This document shows positions 26,884 through 64,000 of a DNA stretch of 64,000 nt, piece after piece. The stretch comes from Bryum argenteum (Eukaryota > Streptophyta > Bryopsida > Bryales > Bryaceae), in assembly GCA_037043015.1 (NCBI GenBank), contig CM073328.1, positions 4,575,409 to 4,639,408 of the forward strand. The letters run 5' to 3'. The position numbers and the translations under genes were made by a program. The first letter of the stretch is position 1. Every line of letters starts with the position of its first letter. The notes under the pieces were generated by a model. That model was not told the origin of the DNA. It ran no database searches and saw nothing but the letters and a program-made list of their open reading frames with translations.

Positions 26884-28035
26884 AAACGATATTTTTCATT
26901 ACAGAAGAGGTGGCTGCCCGAGGAAACGATCCCATTGAATTTAGAGAGGTTTCAGAAGTGAACGACTTTCATCGCAACTCTGAGCAAATATGTTGGGACT
27001 GAGATGACAACAACAATGATTATGTCATCACAAATATTGTCGCCTTGGGAGTGGAGGACTATGTTGCGACAGGGTTCGACCAGAGTATAAATGCTACGCA
27101 ACCAACTAGTTTGAACGGTGTCAAGAACTCAATTTCTAACATGCCAATGGGTACAATTGTGGAGGCCAAGCACGTAAAAGAAGTAATTGTGGTTGAGGAG
27201 GACTTGACAGAGGAGGTTGGAGACGAGGTGACCTTGCAGAGGAGGTCTCAACAGAGAAGGCTGATCACAAGTAAGTTTCGGTGGAGAAGGCCAAGTACGA
27301 TCAGATCTTGGTGGAGCAGGAAGCTCCACAGGAGGTCTCGTTGGAGAAGGCTGCTCAGGAAGAGGGCTTGTCTTGGTGGAGGAGGAAGCTGCACAAGAGG
27401 TCTCGTTGGAAGAGGCCGCTCAGGAAGAGTGCTTGCCTAATGACAAAGTCGCTCAAGAGGAGGCGGCGCTCGAGATTGGGAAGTTGTCGCGGTCGTAACG
27501 AGAGAGGGCGCAACACCCGAGGACATAGCGCAAAAGAACGTAGCGCGAGAGGGCATAGCGCAAGAGGGCGTAGCGCAAAAGGCCGTATGACGAGAAGATG
27601 TAGCGCGAGAGGACGTAGTGCGATAGGCCGTAGCGCACGAATGTGAAGCGCGAGAAGGCGTAGCGCGAGAGAGGGTAGGGCAAGAGAGTGTAGCGCAAAA
27701 GGTCGTAACACGAGAAGGCGTAGCGCAAAAGGTCGTAACACGAGAAGGCGTAGCGCGATAGGCTATAGCACGCAAATGTGTAGCGCGAGAAGGGGTAGCA
27801 CGCTAGAGCGTAGCGCGAGACAACGTAGCGCACAAGGGCGTAGCGTAAGACAACGTAGCGCACAAGGGCGTAGCGTGAGACAATGTAGCGCACAAGGGTG
27901 TAGGGCGAGAGGGAGTAGGGGGAGAAGGTGTAGCGCGAGAGGTCGTAGCGCGAGAGGTTGTCCCGCGTGAGCTTGTAGCGGAGGAGGTTGCCGCAAATGA
28001 GGTTGCCATGGCGGAGGAGATTCGGCCGGAAGAAC
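26884..28035 (+). pseudogene. Decayed coding relic with Glu/Val-rich pentapeptide repeats
   Basis: Patchy plus-strand coding signal: REVSEVNDFHRNSEQICWD, a stop, then DYVITNIVALGVEDYVATGF (about 26905-27080), then Glu/Ala-rich pieces such as APQEVSLEKAAQEE. In the minisatellite the + frame reads V-A-R-E-G type pentapeptides, and it ends with EEVAANEVAMAEEIRPEELL, cut exactly where the retroelement LTR begins (28036). There are several stops and frame changes. I do not recognise the protein. It may be the remains of a gene broken by the LTR retrotransposon. Confidence 0.4.
27489..27970. repeat. 15-bp minisatellite, about 32 degenerate copies
   Basis: Unit GTAGCGCGAGAGGGC and variants (GTAGCGCAAAAGGTC, GTAGCGCACAAGGGC). 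Because 15 is a multiple of three, every frame stays open and long ORFs appear on both strands. Only the + frame with V-A-(R/Q)-(E/K)-x joins flanking coding-like sequence. Confidence 0.93.
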
Positions 28036-49833: not shown

Positions 49834-50122
49834 AAATGCCCCTAACTTAGTCAAAACTTATCCGAATCGAACATTTAAGATGTTTTTTGACATCTACAGA
49901 ACATGTACATGCCAAAAAACATCTTAAACGTCCAATTTGAATACGTTTTCACAACGTTATAAGCCTTTGAAGGTTGAACGGCCTTTGAAGGCCTATAACT
50001 TTGTCAAAACTAATCCAAATTGTGCATTTAAGATGTTTTTTGGCATCTACATGTTTTGCAGATGTCAAAAAACATCTTAAATATGCAATTCGGATAATTT
50101 TTGACTAAGTTAGGGGCATTTG
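49834..50122. repeat. ~290-bp imperfect palindrome, copy B
   Basis: Same hierarchical palindrome as copy A (AAATGCCCCTAACTTAGTCA ... AAGTTAGGGGCATTT), with the two inner AAGATGTTTTTT hairpins. Confidence 0.88.
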
Positions 50123-52816
50123 AAGTTTGAAGAGCCAATGCAGGCAATCAGATCGGCCTCCGACCGATGTGCCGACCGATTCAACGGCCGGCGACCGATT
50201 CGACGGCCACACCCGGTCGGCCCACCCAACCTTCTTCTTTCAATACCCCTTCTCTTCCTAACTTCCCTTCCTCCCTCCCCCTCCCAAATGCTTGACTTTC
50301 GTGACAAATGAAAGGATCGTTGAGACTTACTGTTTTAGGACGTACAATCTAACATATATAGGCCTAATTGGGAAATTTCTGATACTTGTATTAATAGTCA
50401 AAAGAATGTCCGAAAGATTCTCTTGCAAGAAGGACCATATCCCTAAAGGAGAAGCTCTAGAGTGCCCTCCAAGACGGCCATATCTCAAATCTGCAAACAA
50501 TTCTTTTTTTTTTTTTTTTTTTTAAATTTGATTTTGGGAAATCCAACCGTAGGATCTTGTTCCCAACGGTTGAATTAGTCTACCCATCAATTTTTATTAG
50601 ATTTCACTGTACGGATCTTGAGATATATTGAGTCAAAGTTTCAGTTTTTGTAAAAAACATCATATCTTTTTCAAGCAAATCGACCCGATTCGGGTCAAAC
50701 TCTCCTTTAGGGGTTAAGGGGTATACTTATGGGTATACATATAAACTATTGAACTTAATAGTTTCATTTTTGAGTTTTTAATTTTAGTTTTTGGAGAGTG
50801 GTGCGAAATTAAGTTGTTAGAGTGAAACAAAGGAATGAAATTTGGGGGAAGGGGGCGGTAGATGTAAATTACAAAGGAAAGAAAAAACATTAATATCTAA
50901 TAGGAAGATACTTGCAAATTCAAAAAATTAAATAAATTGGGAATTTAAGAAGATAATTAAGGCAAGAAGACAAACTTTTGAAATTAAAGTTTTAAGTAAA
51001 ATAGCATACAAATTTACATTATATAGGAGGGTTACATGTTAATTAAAATTGAAAGGCAATAAATCAAAATTAGAAGTTGAGGTTCTTAGGACAAGATTTA
51101 AAATACTAGCGTTGGTAGATAGAAATTAAAACACAAGGTAGGGATAGAGTAGGAATTAAACAAATCTAATTTGCTATCTTGTTTGGATTTTCTCCTCTTC
51201 TTCCTCATCTATGTCAAGAAGGACCCGACGCAATTCTATCTAATTTTTGTAGGTTGTGACTAATGTGACTAATGCCCTTTTGTACCTTATTCACACAAGT
51301 CGTAATTACTAAATCACCTCCATCTCTCATACGTAGACCACATAGTATTTTGGGTTTTTTATAGATTATAGACTACGTAAACCACGTTCCAGTAAATGTT
51401 TGTGCCTAGTGGACAATTTGACAATTTATTACAATTATTAGATTGCATTAACTTCCAACTTTCTCAAAAGTAAAATAGAATGTATATTATCCACATATGT
51501 ATGTTAAAGTATCCATTTAGTACAATTTAAAATTATTCACGGTTTAAATTAAGATTTTAAATGCTTCCATTTAATTATTGAATTTTTTTACTTTAATTTG
51601 ATATGTGAAATTTAGTTATCAATCAAGCTTTAGAAGTATCAATTTAAATAAAATAAGACCAAGATTAAGAAATCTTGGGGGGTGATATGTTCATTAAAAT
51701 TGAAAAATAATAAATTAAAATTGAGAGTAAGAGATTGTGAACAAGATTTAAAATACGAGGGATAGTAGATAGATATTTGAATATACAAGTTGGTGGTATC
51801 GTAGGATTCATATAGTACTAATTTTCTATCCAATTAGTACCATTTAAAGCTTATTAATGCTTTTGATAATGTTTTCAGTTAACATATGAGAGTTGGGAGC
51901 ATTTAACCCCTAAAAGCCCGAGGGGTTTGGATAAAAACTTAGATGTGTTATGAAATGTGAGTTCCCTAACCCTTATGAAGTTTTTCTCTAAGAACAATAT
52001 GAAGACTTTAATGTTTAAATTAGATCGATACGGTTGAATTTCTTAAAATAGTAAATATTCATTTTGTAATGAATTAAAAAAGGTAAAACTTTAAAAATCA
52101 ATAGAAATGACACTTTCTATTATTAGTACTTGAAATTTGATATGATTGGCTAATATTATATGTTATATAATAAAATAGAAAAAGGCTACTAATAACTCAA
52201 GAAGAATACTAATAGTTTCCCCTAATAGTAAGTTTTCTAACACTAAGAAACTTTGCCACGTTTGTGTTTGAAGGCTTGGTGTGAACAATCTATGATTCCA
52301 AATGAGGTTTTGTAAATTGGATGTGGTTCCTAACTCACCAAACTTCTAGAAAGTAAAAATTCAACCGTTGGACATAAACTAATTCAACCGTTATGAACAA
52401 GATCCTACGGTTGGATATTCGAAAATCAAATTCAAAAAAATTTGTTCGCAGATTTGAGATATGGCCGTCTTGGAGGTCACTCTAGAGCTTCTCCTTTAGG
52501 GATATGATCCTTCTTGCAAGAGAATCTTTCGGACATTCTTTTGACTATTAATACAAGTATCAGAAATTTCCCGATTAGGCCTATATATGTTAGATTGTAC
52601 GTCCTAAAACAGTAAGTCTCAACGATCCTTTCATTTGTCACGAAAGTCAAGCATTTGGGAGGGGGAGGGAGGAAGGGAAGTTAGGAAGAGAAGGGGTATT
52701 GAAAGAAGAAGGTTGGGTGGGCCGACCGGGTATGGCCGTCGAATCGGTCGCCGGCCGTTGAATCGGTCGGCACATCGGTCGGAGGCCGATCTGATTGCCT
52801 GCATTGGCTCTTCAAA
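50123..52816. repeat. Long inverted repeat 2 (arms ~50123-50545 and ~52395-52816)
   Basis: The left arm (AAATGCTTGACTTTCGTGAC, AACATATATAGGCCTAATTG, GATTCTCTTGCAAGAAGGA) is matched in inverse by the right arm (GTCACGAAAGTCAAGCATTT, TAGGCCTATATATGTT, TCCTTCTTGCAAGAGAATC). Identity is above 90 percent by eye. The ~1.85-kb loop is AT-rich with no gene. Confidence 0.9.
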
Positions 52817-52819
52817 CTT

Positions 52820-53106
52820 CAAATGCCCATAAGTTCGTCAAAAATTATCCGAATTTCTTATTTAAGATGTTTTTTGACATCTGCAAAACATGTAGATGCC
52901 AAAAAACATCTTAAATGCACAATTTGGATTAGTTTTGACAAAGTTATAGGCCTTCAAAGGCCGTTCAACCTTCAAAGGCCTATAACTTTGTCAAAACGTA
53001 TTCAAATTGGACGTTTAAGATGTTTTTTGGCATGTACATGTTCTGTAGATGTCAAAAAACATCTTAAATGTTTGATTCGGATAAGTTTTGACTAAGTTAG
53101 GAGCAT
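52820..53106. repeat. ~290-bp imperfect palindrome, copy C
   Basis: Third copy of the A/B palindrome (AAATGCCCATAAGTTCGTCA ... AAGTTAGGAGCATTT). Confidence 0.88.
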
Positions 53107-53109
53107 TTG

Positions 53110-53425
53110 ACCTCGCCGGACGCCACAGCGGTCGGCGGCCGACCTCGCCAGTCGCCACAGCGGTCGGCGGCCGACCTCGCCGGTCGCCACAGCGGTCGGC
53201 GGCCGACCTCGCCGGTCGCCACAGCGGTCGGCGGCCGACCTCGCCGGTCGCCACAGCGGTCGGCGGCCGACCTCGCCGGTCGTCACCCCGGTCGGCGGCC
53301 GACCTTGACGGTAGTCACCCCGGTCGGCGGCCGACCTCGCCGGTCCGCTAACGGGTCGGTGGCCGACCTCGCCGGTCGTCACCCCGGTCGGCGGCCGACC
53401 TCGCCGGTCCGCACACCGGTCGGGT
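53110..53425. repeat. 32-bp GC-rich minisatellite, about ten copies
   Basis: Unit CGGTCGGCGGCCGACCTCGC + CGGTCGCCACAG, exactly 32 bp in the first five copies (period ends at 53128, 53160, 53192...), with CACCCCGG and CGCTAACGGG variants later. It contains the palindrome GGTCGGCGGCCGACC. A 32-bp period opens all frames over 96 bp, so long ORFs here are artefacts. Confidence 0.95.
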
Positions 53426-56864: not shown

Positions 56865-58620
56865 ATTGCTGTTAGCTGGGATTTCCAAGAGTAGTGCTTT
56901 ACGTAGTCTCCCAAGTCGACCTGTGTAGAGAAAGGAAGAGGTATACGCTTTAGTTGTAAAAGGAGAGAGAGGGGGAGAACAGGAGTCCTTACTTTGACTG
57001 ACCGAGGTAAGTTGGGCAGCGTTGACTATGGTGGTCCGAAGGGCAGGGGGAAGTCTGAGGGGGGTTCAGGAAGAGCGGGGGAATCACTCGGGTCACTCGC
57101 TCGGGAGTGACGAGTTCGAAGAGCCAGCAGAGGAAGGTGAATCAAGAAGATTTCACCCGCATGAAATCGATTGAGTGCTTCTGTTGATCCGGTAATCACA
57201 GTTGGGGCCGTAGACTGTGCTGGCTTTGGTGGCTTGGCACCCTGGGCGGGGTTGTCACCCTTCCGTGGTGCGTGTGCGAGGCAGCGAGAGGCATCAAGGG
57301 GTTACCCTCAATGTTGCCATTGCGCGAGACGTATGAGGGGTGGTAGGATTAGACAGAATACAGGGAGGCGAAGCAATACAGAGTGGGAGAAGGAGTATGC
57401 GGAGAATCAGAGAGTTTAGAGAAAAGGACCGGTTCTCAGACCGTTGTATTCATAAGCAAAAACAATACAATCGCAGCGTGCTGCTCCATGTTGACATTGG
57501 TTGACTAAGAAGTGCCTAATCTCTGTTTTCTACTTCTTAAGTAATCCTTGCTGCCGAAGAATCCTACTGACTAACGGTGGCCTTATCCTGATTGCGTCCT
57601 TGGGCTGACGTCGCGGCCTTCGTGACTCCATAGCCGCATCTGACGTTGCCTTCTGATGTCTTCCTCCGAAAAGGGCGTGCCTTCAGCTGACAGCGTTGGC
57701 TCGGTAACAATTGCACTGTGTATCATAGCAGGCCGCGGCGAAAAAATTAACTGGGGCAAGCTCGTGGATAGGAATGCAGTCAACCAAATCCAAGGGCACG
57801 TACAGAGTGGCGAGGGGAATGCAGGGGCATGAGCGGAGAGCGGTGAGCAGAGAGCGGTGAGCGGCGAGCGGAGAGCGGAAAGTTGACATTTGTTAATAAA
57901 AATTTGGACAAATTTTTTGTTGAATTATGTAATTATCGGGACTCTCAGTCCGCAATTTTACAAGTAATAAATTCTAAATTTAATCCATGAATACCCTATT
58001 CCCGTGGATAGTATGTGGGACCGACAATAACAAGTTCACGTAGATGACATCAAGGCAACATTTATCATTCGTGAATATCATCCACTTGCAAAATTATATT
58101 TTATTATAGGGTTTAGGGAAATTAGGGCTGATGTCATCATTTTTAAAAACAAAATAGAGGTTGACTAACCTTTGGGATCTACAAGTTAGAATTAAAGGTT
58201 AGATTTTAGTGCTAAATAGAAAGTGAGTGCCAAACTGTGGATGTATGTAAAACACAAGAGTGGATGGAACACTAGACACTTATTGGAAATCAAAATCAAA
58301 ATCCAATCCAACATATTAATGTATGAATGTCAAAGCCACACACATATATGAGAAAAGGTGAGTGAACACCTTTCTACAAACATAATATAACAAGTAGCAT
58401 ATCAAATACTATGTGTTAGTGCTATCACACCGATCCGCTTCGTAATCTAGATATCAAGTACTCCCGGACTAAAGACCACCCCCCTTTGTTGTCACAAAGA
58501 ATCGGAGAAGGTCTTTGCGATGAAGTCTTGAGCAAGGCCTTCGGCATAAGAAGGTAGGCGGAATGATTGAGGTGGACTAGCAAATAAGTTGGGAGTTAGG
58601 GACGCGTTGTCGAGTCGTAC
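56865..58620. other. Intergenic; possible minus-strand LTR remnant and short tandem repeat
   Basis: Bases 57182-57709 start TGTTGATCC and end GGCTCGGTAACA, an LTR-like TGTT...AACA unit, but there is no TSD, PBS or partner, so I leave it as a possibility. At 57828-57885 a GAGCGGAGAGCGGTGAGC-type short repeat occurs. Downstream is AT-rich with no gene. About 58420-58620 is the 3' flank of the next gene. Confidence 0.35.
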
Positions 58621-61600
58621 CTAAGGACCTAGAAATACAAAGGAGTTAGTGGATGAATAAAATTAAAACAAGCCAATTAACATGTTCAAGCAAACAAATT
58701 AATACAATCAAGTTGAATAACGCACCCAACCCATATTTCCTCTTCCTTGAAGGCCCACGCTTGCTGTCACTGTTGTCACTGTCAGAACTGTCGCTAATGG
58801 GAATAGAAGCTCTAGCTGGTGGCGCTTGAGAACGTTCCGGCGGGATTATCGGTTTCAGAAGGGCGTCAAAGAGGGCACGGTCTTTCTCAACAGCAATAAG
58901 GTGGCGACCGGCAATTCTACAGGCATGTATGGAAGCACCTGTGTATCAAAATATTAGCACATGGTTTTTGAAATAATATCATAGTACGGAAGTCAGTAGA
59001 TAGGACTTATACATGTAGATGCGGTCCAGTCAAATACGATGTCTCCCTCGTCGGTGAGGGACTCAATGATACATTGGAGAAAGTCAGGGTGCTTCTCCTT
59101 GGCTCCCCTCCAAGGCACGGTGCCGCGCATCGCCTGGCTCAGCGGGTCTACTTGATTCTGAACAAGTAAAGTCTCTTCGGGGAGAAGGTCTAAGTCCTTC
59201 CAACGTTTTGGCTGCCTCGTGTAGAACACAGCATCCTGTCGTGCATATACTTTTATGTCGAACAACGCAGTCTACAGGAAAGAAACTCGAAACAATTAAT
59301 CATATAACTTTTTAAAGCCACTGGAAATAACGCATTGAAAATGAAAAATGGGTGAGTAAATACCGTAGGAAACTCTGGGTTAGTAGATGCTAACTTGAGA
59401 CGGTTGCCTCCAACCCATTTACGAACAAGTTTGAATCTGTAAGTAGCGGCCTTGGCTTCGAGCCGCTTCTCCAATCGTTCATCTTGGCCATGTGTAATCA
59501 TGATCAGGCCATTATCGTGTAGATTAGCCTCAGCAAATACGAAAAAGAGTTCAACAAATGCTCTTCCACGTGCGTTCCAAGGTGGGACATCCCGAGGAGA
59601 TACAACAGGAACTGGTAGGTTGTCTGGCACATCACAAATGATGAGATCGATGCCAGTATGGGTATCACGCATCACCGTTTTGGACATTATCTCCGTAGAT
59701 CGAGTACGACCCTGACCAACCTGAACATTATGCACACGAGTGTAAGAGGTCAAAATAAGTGATACAAAATTGAATGGGAGTTTGATAAAAAGAAGAGAAT
59801 GTGGTTGATCAAATGAGGCTACAGGAAGTGCGATAGTACCTTTGTAATAAATTCCATGATCTTGTAGTATTGAGGGTCGAACACTCTCTCATCGCTAGTG
59901 GCGCGTGTCATAACCTCTAACATGTCAACACACTCAATGTATTGTGGCAAGAATGTAACAGGATAGTCCAAAGAGGTCAACACCGACCGGTATGGTAGCT
60001 TGGTAAGAGAAGCCGCGACAACAGATAGAGGATGACGATGTGCTTGAGTCACTGAATCGATAACATCGTAATCGTCTCTATCTTGAAGAGTACTTGGTGC
60101 ATCGTTGGACCGCTGCGACGGAGCCACTCTAGACGCCAATGGTGCAGGAGTAACGCTCGTCGGGGTAGGAGCAACGTCTGGAGGTGGAGGAGCATCCTCA
60201 TCAGTTGGTGAAGGGACAACATTCTTAGAACAATTAGTTCGTCCTCGCTTTTTCTTCAGCTTTGGTGCCACTTCCTCTTCAAAATCGTCATTCTCACCAT
60301 TGTGGACACCATTGGCTTGAGGAGGTGCAACAGGATCGGGAGGGGGTGCACCCTCGATCGACGTGAATAAAGCCTTCTCGATGCGGGACATAACCAACCA
60401 AACAATCGAGGTACCAACCTCGACTTGAAGATGAACATCCGAGAAACGCGATCGATGGTGTTTGGCATAAATCGTGTTCTGATGTGGTGTCCAACGAGGT
60501 ACTGAAGTACTTTGGAAGTTTGTCTGACTGAACCGCATCTTTCTCCACGAGTTCACGATGGATGTACCTATGAAATGTATCTATTAGGTAAACGAATTGT
60601 GGGATACGAGATACCAAACTCAAAACAGAAATAAAGAAACAAATATACCTGTATAAAACTCGTTTTGCCAGCATCTTTCCAACAGTGAGAGACTTCAACT
60701 CTGTGCTTTTCATAAACCGTTGGCTTCCCTTTGCGGTATAAACCTCGAGAAACGCCTTATCCATCAATGTCTTCCTCCAAGTGTCAATGTATTCTTTTGG
60801 ATGGAGAACTCCTTCTTTCCAGTCAACCGTGATTGTTTTGGCTAGAACCATATCTTGAAATAAATTGTCCACTTCCACTTCCAACTGCAAATGTAGAACA
60901 CGGAAGGAATAGAAACATTGAAATTTATAAATCGAGCATAACCAAGGAGAATTAAAATGTGGTAGTAAAATTAATGGAAAATTAAAAGAATAACATTAAA
61001 TAGATTGGAATTGTACCTGGGCCCATAACGACGCTCTTTGAAGCCATGGATCAAGCACCTTCTCTCTCATTGGTCTTTCTCCAGGAAATCCAACGTCGGC
61101 ACGAACTGCGGATGATGCGTTCCACCATGACAACCATTTGCATTTGTACTCAGGAGTAACACAACATGTAGAAACTTTGTAAATTCGCTCGATTGACAGG
61201 TCGGGCTTTAAAAACAAAGAGTAGTGTTTTGAAATCTGCGAATGACATGAGTGAGTTAGTATGAGGCACAGATAGAAATATGGATAGTAAATGAAGTTTA
61301 ATGGTAGAAGAAACTTACTTCTTTCAAGAAATCTTCGCCGTTTAAAGATTTGATTGATCGGGGTTGGCAAGTCCAACAACCTTGTCAAAGCCACTACCTC
61401 GAATCTCCTTGATTCTCTTCAATTGGGCATCCCGCATGATTTGCCACACTCTCGGACTTTTCCAATTGTCTGAACCCGTTGAAGCAAAATATTGTTTGGC
61501 AGCTGAGTCTGCTGCTTTGGACAGTTCTTGCTGCAAGAATGACGCATTCGAAGGATGAATAAATATCAACTTTGTCTTGAACTAAATTCAGGTGAGGTAT

Positions 61601-62672
61601 GAAGTTCAAACCTTATAGAGAAATGCGACGAAGACGTCGGTAGTCAAAGCAAACCACGTCGACTTGTGCTTTGGTTTCTCCTCCCTGCAGATATCAAGGT
61701 CCTCAGATGGGATCAAACCCTCGAACTCATGGAGCTTGAGTTTTCCAAACGTTTGTATCCGTTGAAGTTTAGAAGGGGTGCTTTCTTTCACATGATCGTT
61801 TTCCTTGGACCTGCAACATAAAATTATATCATGTATTAGTCAAATCAAGGATAAGCATTAAAATCAACCTTGAGAAAATGAGAAGTGTTAGTAACTTACC
61901 AATTCAGGTCGTTCATCGCGTTAATAACCATGCTGTTATTGATTCGGGTATCAAGCAGGATACAATCCACAGATATGTGCCAGGAAGGCTCCATCATGTG
62001 ATGTTGATCCACGTGTCGCCTCCAAGCAGTCAATCGATGATTGCCCTCGTACACATAGAACATCTTGCCAGCAAATTGCACAAGGTCCGGATCCGCAAGC
62101 AATTGACTTTCAAACTCTGAATTTGCCGCAACCCAATATGGTCCCCATTTTGCCGAAATATCAGGCGTAAGAGGCATAGAATTTTGCTTGTCATTGTGAA
62201 CAGACACGTACATGACAGTATCCCCTTCTCTGTATCCGTTGACAAATTCATTCTCGAGCTTTTGAACGTCAAACTCATTGATAGGGCGCACAAGGGGAAG
62301 TGGTTCCAATCGACATAATGGAATCACAAGTCTACATTTGGATAGGGGACGATACCGAAACCTGTTGATAACGGCAATCGTATCTGTCTTTTGAAGTTTG
62401 CGAAACGCGACCTCACTTGCCCGTGCATCTCCGAAAGACTCAGGCATCTTCAACATGGCAATTTGCACATCTCCATCTTCAAGAGTATCTTCCTCACTAT
62501 GGGTTTGAGTCTGGGGATCCATCTGGGTACCTTGTGATGTAGCAAGCATACTTGGGGAACCTTGATCAGCTTGACCTCCAGGTGGCATTGATCTGGAAGG
62601 TTGACTTGCCAACCTCGTTCTCTCGGGAACAGCTGATGGAGTAACTTGAGCCAATGGAATTGAATGGACCAT
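58621..62672 (-). CDS. ParB/sulfiredoxin-like domain fused to a beta-class DNA methyltransferase-like domain; about eleven exons
   Basis: Exon model (minus): 61900-62672, 61612-61810, 61398-61530, 61319-61332, 61017-61235, 60649-60884, 59840-60567, 59364-59720, 59013-59271, 58726-58938, 58621-58628; about 1,045 residues. Exon 1 has a Gln/Pro-rich start, then a ParB-like block: VIPLCRLEPLPLVRPINEFD ... FYVYEGNHRLTAWRRH (the G-N-H-R-L core). Exon 7 ends a low-complexity Pro-rich linker with KLKKKRGR (NLS-like). Exon 8 has DLIICDVPDN at the DPPY (motif IV) position and GLIMITHG. Exons 9-10 give GDIVFDWTAST-CASIHACRIAGR and HLIAVEKDRALFDALL, the motif I/X end of beta-class N6A/N4C methyltransferases. 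DPPY and DPFxGSG are both degenerate, so catalysis is doubtful. The exon 6/7 phase does not match by one base (alternative acceptor, error or frameshift). Exon 4 (14 nt) and exon 11 (8 nt) are tentative. Confidence 0.68.
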
Positions 62673-63414
62673 CTGTTGGTCAAAAGTTATCAAGTTTAAG
62701 TTCAATAGAAATCCAATTCACGAAAGTCAACACAACAAAACAAATTTCAATGAACAGTATTAATGTATATGACAACCAAATCATAATATGATGAATCTTA
62801 GAACACTAAAAGGTGTCAACGGAAAGGCATATCGTGATCAACTCTCTAAGCGAATTTAGTAGTTGGCCAAGGGGAACGCCTAGGGATACGAGGGGCATCA
62901 TTGCACGAAGTCAGAGAGGTCGATAATATCAAGAGGGAATTCACTTCAATCTCCCTGCAAAACAAAAACAATCATAAAGATTAGAATCATATCCAAATGT
63001 AGAAATTCGTAATCAACATTGCTCACATTACCTCTAGGTCTAATAAAGCCAATCTTCAAATCAATTTTCCAAACATCCCATTACAATGGGCATCTGATTA
63101 AAAATTACAGGCAACAAGGACATCAAATCCCGCCCTCATTATGTCCCAACCGGATGTCACAAACATTGTCATAAGCAAGCTCAAAGAGAACTTTCCCCTC
63201 CTCCAAAAGTATCCCGAGCTCATTGTATAAAACGAGAGCCTATATGTCGAAAACGGAGAAGTAGTTATTCAAAACTGTATGTCCATTTTAACCAAATCGA
63301 AATGCAGGAACAGAGATCAATATCCCACCCATCTGTCAATAACATGAGCCCCAGTACCAAAGCAGTACCAACGAAATTTGAATAAGTAGCAAAAAGATAA
63401 TAATAATGCTAAAT
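62673..63414. other. Upstream flank of the ParB-MTase-like gene
   Basis: The start codon at 62672 directly follows an acceptor-like CCAACAG, so an untranslated or short coding exon may lie upstream. No further coding exon is convincing. The region is AT-rich with short ORFs. Confidence 0.4.
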
Positions 63415-63942
63415 TTTGGAGAACATTCGCCCGCGAAAGATGTCCCAAACTCGGCACTTGCTTCCAGAAATAATCATTTTAACCAACATGCTCATTACCC
63501 GCTGCCCAGATCTCCTTCATCAGATCTTGAAGACAAATTGAAAAGCAAGATCAAAGCTCGAATCCCCTCCATCTGATAATAAGCCCCACTACCAAAGAAG
63601 TTGAGCCAGTGTGGATGCTCAGATTCTGCAATAGAGAGTTCAAAGGCAAGAAATGCTCGAAGCAAAAGCGGACATGTATCAATCGGATTTGAATAGCGCT
63701 GGATTTTGGAGAACTTTCGCCCACGAAAGATGTCCTCAACTTGGTTTTTCTAAGGAAGCTGCAGGATTTGAGAAAGAACTTTCGCCCACGAAAGATCTCC
63801 CCAACTCGGCATAACAAATAAGACTGTTGGTATTCGGAGAACTTTCACCCACGAAAGATGTCCCAAACTCGACATGGCTAATCAGGTTGCTGGATTCTGG
63901 AGAACTTTCACCAATGAAAGTTCTCCCGAACAAGGCACTCAT
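63415..63942 (-). repeat. 63-65-bp repeat with a 21-residue open frame
   Basis: Copies of GGAGAACTTTCGCCCACGAA + AGATGTCCCAAACTCG begin near 63419, 63709, 63774, 63837 and 63900; the last four are tandem with 63-65-bp spacing. Each has the palindrome CTTTCG-CCCA-CGAAAG. On the minus strand the array reads as repeats of F-G-T-S-F-V-G-E-S-S-P. Whether it is translated is unknown; the array runs toward the window edge. Confidence 0.8.
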
Positions 63943-64000
63943 ATCGAAATATTTTCAGTCTAACTATTAGTTGCATCAAATTCCTCACCAGTTCTATCAT

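Follow-up and report, generated by a model that had tools for sequence, protein, structure and literature searches.

A gene with ParB-like and methyltransferase-like folds carried by a two-gene DNA transposon of the moss Bryum argenteum

In Arabidopsis, the VANC proteins of VANDAL transposons bind motifs in the tandem repeats of their own elements and remove silencing from them, according to the available portions of three reports (PMC5735166, PMC10398659, PMC13317346). Here we describe a gene that lies in a stretch of 64,000 nucleotides from the moss Bryum argenteum (assembly GCA_037043015.1, contig CM073328.1, positions 4,575,409 to 4,639,408 of the forward strand), which we call the window. 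This gene belongs to a DNA transposon of about 14 kb that carries two divergent genes, and its predicted product joins a ParB/sulfiredoxin fold to a beta-class DNA methyltransferase (MTase) fold. Our best reading, which we favour slightly on balance, is that the product would be an accessory transposon protein, a DNA-binding regulator or an anti-silencing factor, with a VANC-like way of working.

The likeness to VANC is that both would be accessory proteins of DNA transposons (available portions of PMC5735166 and PMC10398659), and the VANC targets, which are non-coding tandem repeats of their own elements, may have a counterpart in a palindrome array of the moss element. Anti-silencing is established for VANC, whereas for the moss protein it is proposed by analogy, and the same portions do not mention a ParB or MTase fold for VANC. 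Joined ParB and methylase domains are known from prokaryotes and phages; in Bacillus cereus Bce_0392, a ParB and an adenine-methylase domain stand in one protein (excerpt of PMC5512222). The moss protein shares this joining but is encoded in a plant transposon by nine exons, has changed motifs IV and I, and is about 1,050-1,090 residues long. Its MTase half resembles CcrM, M.MboIIA, M.BceJIV and the Adineta vaga enzyme N4CMT in fold and in the order of motifs, IV and then I. Other mobile elements also have DNA-modification enzymes: TET/JBP genes are carried by fungal DNA transposons, C5-MTases by dinoflagellate and charophyte retrotransposons, and Dam-like MTases by DIRS elements (passages of PMC12730594 and PMC5890265). 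These cases differ from the moss element in enzyme family and element class, and the passages mention neither a ParB domain nor a moss. No title or abstract among the matches listed in our search, mainly of open-access literature, names a moss ParB/MTase transposon gene, and the gene is not described in the available portions of PMC6446971, PMC5735166, PMC10398659, PMC5512222, PMC5890265, PMC12695648, PMC3627910, PMC13317346 or PMC12730594.

The element, its two genes and its copies

A 1-kb probe identified six places in the genome: the window and five others at 96-99% identity. Flank alignment revealed a sharp left border, common to all six copies, at position 57814 of the window, and a genome search for the first 20 bases of this end gives six exact occurrences, one in each copy. 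On the right, the window copy extends beyond the window to C8:4647046. At each end of the element stands an imperfect inverted repeat with many GAGCGGN heptamers. Copies for which both ends are available measure 13.8-14.3 kb, apart from the C1 copy, which reaches 19.0 kb and has an insertion of about 4.6 kb inside. Perfect 10-bp direct repeats flank three of the four copies with both ends (C6, C8b and C1); the window copy has no target-site duplication at its two ends. The first-pass annotation had proposed an ancient transfer or a domesticated mobile-element protein; a domesticated gene or a single plant gene of ancient transfer is not supported, in view of the multiple near-identical copies, the terminal repeats, the target duplications and the transposase gene alongside, and we rejected the domesticated-gene reading because of the element ends, the copies and the transposase linkage. 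The parts of the element in the window, leaving aside its palindromic repeats, are as follows.

57814..64000, no strand: transposon part inside the window; continues to C8:4647046, and the part outside the window holds the right end and the divergent transposase gene
57814..57879, plus strand: left end, imperfect terminal inverted repeat and GAGCGGN heptamer array; inverted counterpart at the right end
61900..62672, minus strand: exon 1, ParB/sulfiredoxin-fold domain with the EGNHR motif (AlphaFold model m28d2a021367e, fold search, weak phrog_1033 matches of family members)
61612..61810, minus strand: exon 2
61319..61530, minus strand: exon 3, middle region; site of a 14-bp insertion in the window copy
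61017..61235, minus strand: exon 4, middle region; no domain in a Pfam search of the spliced protein
60649..60884, minus strand: exon 5, middle region; no domain in the same search
59840..60567, minus strand: exon 6, basic proline-rich linker, then the first part of the MTase half; with a frameshift in the window copy
59364..59720, minus strand: exon 7, MTase motif IV variant DLIICDVPDN and the strands after it
59013..59271, minus strand: exon 8, MTase part ending in GDIVFDWTAST, a variant of motif I DPFxGSG
58646..58938, minus strand: exon 9, remainder of MTase motif I, the motif II region (the C3 copy reads GASIHACRIAGRHLIAVEKDR) and a basic tail; 3' gene end uncertain

Two further observations concern the copies. 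The left-end sequence occurs with two mismatches at C1:33869170, C1:41254869, C2:2117056, C2:22827067 and C7:12572327, which are perhaps the ends of related families. The C3 copy is broken at about C3:27673690 by a sequence starting CACTATAAGAAA, presumably a CACTA element; about 15 kb further on, at C3:27.688-27.698 Mb, a ParB match, palindromes and a transposase match seem to be the other half of this interrupted copy.

The ParB/MTase gene runs on the minus strand from 62672 to about 58646 in nine exons with GT-AG borders. The exons and motifs expected from the first-pass annotation were confirmed at their place, with the EGNHRL core, DLIICDVPDN, GDIVFDWTAST and HLIAVEKDR all on this strand, and the two-part gene recurs across the genome. 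The gene is thus present, but its window copy is not intact: exon 3 carries a 14-bp insertion that shifts the frame and is not found in the five other copies, and exon 6 has a frameshift when compared with the C3 and C6 copies. Such clusters of small indels between near-identical copies may partly be assembly errors. Exons 3 to 9 of the C3 copy are open without a break, and joined to exons 1 and 2 of the window they give one frame of 1,088 residues. Exon 9 is also readable in three further loci (L043, L044 and L046), and in L045 with a stop.

Near the right end, on the opposite strand, lies a multi-exon transposase gene. Its product contains WTTMACHVY...CCDFQSED, a candidate for the first catalytic Asp, followed 36 residues on by FMADSAQANWNA, a candidate for the second; RTCLFHW comes next, its Cys lying 29 further on. 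The C-terminus has a SWIM-like C-x-C...C-x3-H arrangement that scores 12.6 bits (expect value, E, of 0.1) against a cut-off of 19.6. The resulting D..D..CxxH pattern is of the kind seen in Mutator-like elements (MULEs), to which the SWIM-like C-terminus may add a further likeness. No Pfam or NCBIfam transposase model matches it, which sets it apart from MULEs; PF10551 matches 74 places in the genome, none of them at the element copies, and has no match in two transposase open reading frames. These 74 places hold transposases that fit the ordinary Mutator model, apart from the transposase family of the element. The 10-bp duplications, and likewise the imperfect inverted ends with their length of some tens of bases, fit the ranges given for MULEs in the available part of PMC6446971 (target duplications of 8-11 bp, ends of 14-500 bp). 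The duplications and the layout suggest a divergent Mutator-like transposase; since PF10551 has no match, we make no firm assignment, and the element may belong to another or a new transposon superfamily. In the sequence flanking the C4 copy, at L016:7666-9825, we observed another, divergent transposase belonging to this family, with 44-51% identity.

The gene family is large. In the genome search with exon 1, all 148 scored candidates matched at E <= 3.3e-58 (of 1,123 first-look candidates); the search with the MTase half gave at least 229 matches from 150 scored of 1,828 candidates, and that with the transposase core gave 150 matches, 70-100% identical, from 150 scored of 1,111. The linkage counts that follow are drawn from the listed matches only. 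A ParB-exon match was present within 6 kb of 44 of the 133 listed motif-IV-exon matches (42 of 111 in one subset, 2 of 22 in the other), always on the same strand, and the MTase exon was downstream in 43 pairs and upstream in one; random placement of the 111 gave a mean of 0.9 pairs and a maximum of 4 in 200 trials. The reverse-order pair, at C2:34513185 and C2:34515495 on the same strand, perhaps represents two neighbouring elements. With one of the 150 transposase matches left out, 49 of 149 had a ParB match within 20 kb (4.5 under random placement), and 48 of these 49 pairs were divergent, 5.3-17.4 kb apart (1.0 under random placement). This divergent linkage is far above random, and we therefore consider the two-gene layout to be common in this genome.

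Folds, active-site motifs and selection

According to an AlphaFold model and a fold search of the PDB, the N-terminal half adopts the alpha+beta fold of the ParB/sulfiredoxin superfamily. The GxxR motif of this superfamily is present, and residues G210, N211, H212 and R213 are each at least 90% conserved among 58 sequences. At the level of sequence profiles, phrog_1033 matched weakly (14 of the 58 sequences, best E 0.0027), and the curated ParB_N model PF02195 matched none of ten members and gave no genome match at E <= 0.001. The C-terminal half adopts, by the same two methods, a class I MTase fold in which motif IV precedes motif I, the beta-class type of N6-adenine/N4-cytosine enzymes. The MTase model was made for the homologue P0122 (mean predicted local distance difference test score 66, predicted template modelling score 0.65), which has no PF01555 match; the window-family protein scored 19.6 and 21.5 bits with PF01555, below its cut-off of 26.7. 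Pfam scans of single exons and PDB sequence searches gave nothing useful. A fold search had been named as the test of the annotated ParB plus DNA MTase architecture, and it was passed because both predicted folds were found.

In beta-class enzymes, motif IV is expected to read (D/N/S)PP(Y/F/W) and motif I DPFxGSG. Motif IV was readable in 33 of the 39 rows of our MTase fold alignment. Its Asp is retained in 31 of these and its second Pro in 30; the first Pro is replaced by V, A, I, L or T in all 33, and the aromatic position is occupied by E (23), D (5), S (3), R (1) or V (1) and never by an aromatic residue. In contrast to DPPY, the moss motif thus reads mostly D-V/A-P-E/D, and motif I, readable in 11 rows, is DWSxSTG in 7 of them and DPFxGSG in none. 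The first-pass annotation had called the catalytic motifs degenerate: alignment of both motifs shows that they are altered, but the change is conserved rather than a decay, with E or D at the aromatic position in 28 of 33 sequences. One row, P0164, stands outside the 33, its normal DPPY falling beyond the aligned columns; it scores above the PF01555 cut-off and reads DPMASTG at motif I. Because P0164 combines this form with a normal DPPY, the STG form alone is not a sign of inactivity. Judging by known enzymes, loss of the aromatic residue in motif IV would be such a sign.

The gene family is under strong purifying selection. The ratio of nonsynonymous to synonymous substitution rates (dN/dS) of the ParB exon has a median of 0.06 and a range of 0.026-0.17 (52 of 120 pairs), and that of MTase exon 7 lies at 0.05-0.17 (3 of 15 pairs; 0.05 for L047 against L048). 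The sequences were chosen from the top matches, a choice that favours intact copies, and the pairs are not independent. Between L047 and L048, the synonymous divergence of exon 7 is 0.40, far below that of exon 2, which is saturated; this contrast suggests that gene parts have been exchanged between families.

These observations bear on the possibility that the protein is an active DNA N6-adenine/N4-cytosine MTase with an unusual active site, with which the element would mark its own copies and make them distinguishable to host silencing or to the transposase. We regard this as unlikely. It would be consistent with the retained Asp and second Pro of motif IV, with the Asp and last Gly kept in DWSxSTG, with the ASTG of P0164 beside its normal DPPY and PF01555 match, with the proximity of the fold to active enzymes, including the rotifer N4-cytosine enzyme, and with the purifying selection on exon 7; it is opposed by the acidic residues at the aromatic position, the replacement of the first Pro in every sequence and the PF01555 score under the cut-off.

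When the full-length protein was the query, no relative reached E <= 1 among 7,989 scored candidates; a separate profile for each half then did recover relatives. The exon-1 profile retrieved 136 proteins at E <= 1 among 2,667 candidates, and among the 120 matches listed, the only species-named protein belongs to the moss Ceratodon purpureus. Among proteins with a recognised MTase domain, P0164 is the nearest (E 0.0077). No relatives were found among 48 pattern stretches of viral contigs, nothing at E <= 1 in 50,697 phage records compared with the exon-1 homologue P0005, and no confirmed occurrence of P0164 among 291 stretches of genome contigs. P0164 was also followed in phages (8 records) and plasmids (484 records), which provided no origin for the plant gene.

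Palindromic repeats and the proposed function

The spacer between the two genes contains the palindromic array.

63424..63920, no strand: palindromic repeats CTTTCG-CCCA-CGAAAG and variants, at 63424, 63714, 63779, 63842 and 63905; the array runs past the window

Allowing up to three mismatches, the spacer has nine such sites in the window copy and ten in three other copies, mostly within a wider near-dyad GGAGAA...ATGTCC. Flanking sequence totalling 58.7 kb contains no such site on either strand. In 259 Mb we counted 28 occurrences of the exact 16-mer, always inside the six copies, and its reversed control does not occur. In three other families the equivalent spacer also contains arrays, each family having its own. 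A dyad count of these spacers gave no comparable repeated palindrome, which speaks against the palindrome being general in the family; given also that arrays are common elsewhere in the window, we downgraded these tandem arrays, after a check of the window background, to suggestive evidence. Elsewhere in the window we observed two arrays of 153-bp units (49843-50131 and 52811-53099), a GC-rich 32-bp tandem array of 9.8 copies beside the second of them (53109-53423), and an array of about 29 copies of a 15-bp unit that could encode a repetitive peptide (27494-27980).

Our leading reading, a plausible one, is that the moss protein binds DNA and does not methylate it. On this account, the protein would act in the plant nucleus on the DNA of its own element: it would bind the palindromes of the spacer, its methylation activity would have been lost, and the ParB-like and MTase-like domains together might, by analogy with VANC, keep the element from silencing or regulate transposition. 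A more elaborate version, which we regard as quite improbable in its entirety, is that the ParB-like domain loads at the palindromes as ParB does at parS and spreads over the element, while the pseudo-MTase recognises modified bases or dislodges the methylation machinery of the host, and that the family is thereby kept active in mosses.

It is doubtful that the ParB-like domain is instead a nicking nuclease or an NTPase aiding excision or replication, with the MTase fold only a DNA-binding platform: the superfamily Arg is retained in GNHR, and nonspecific nicking or NTPase activity is reported for ParB domains, including that of a Bacillus ParB-methylase (excerpt of PMC5512222), but a nonspecific nuclease would not require a palindrome array, and strand cutting is generally expected of the transposase itself. 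A host gene captured by chance as a passenger, or domesticated, is very improbable, since, although Mutator-like elements are prone to picking up fragments of host genes (available part of PMC6446971), the same gene stands beside divergent members of the transposase family in 48 divergent pairs and is under strong purifying selection (148 of 1,123 candidates scored).

Implications

To our knowledge, few accessory proteins of DNA transposons that act against plant silencing are known. If our preferred reading of an accessory DNA-binding protein is true, this gene would add an anti-silencing protein with folds of prokaryotic type, present at no fewer than 148 places in one genome. The array between the two genes is a defined candidate target, and the action of the protein is therefore directly testable. 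In the MTase half, a land plant has kept a beta-class fold under strong selection with its active site rebuilt.
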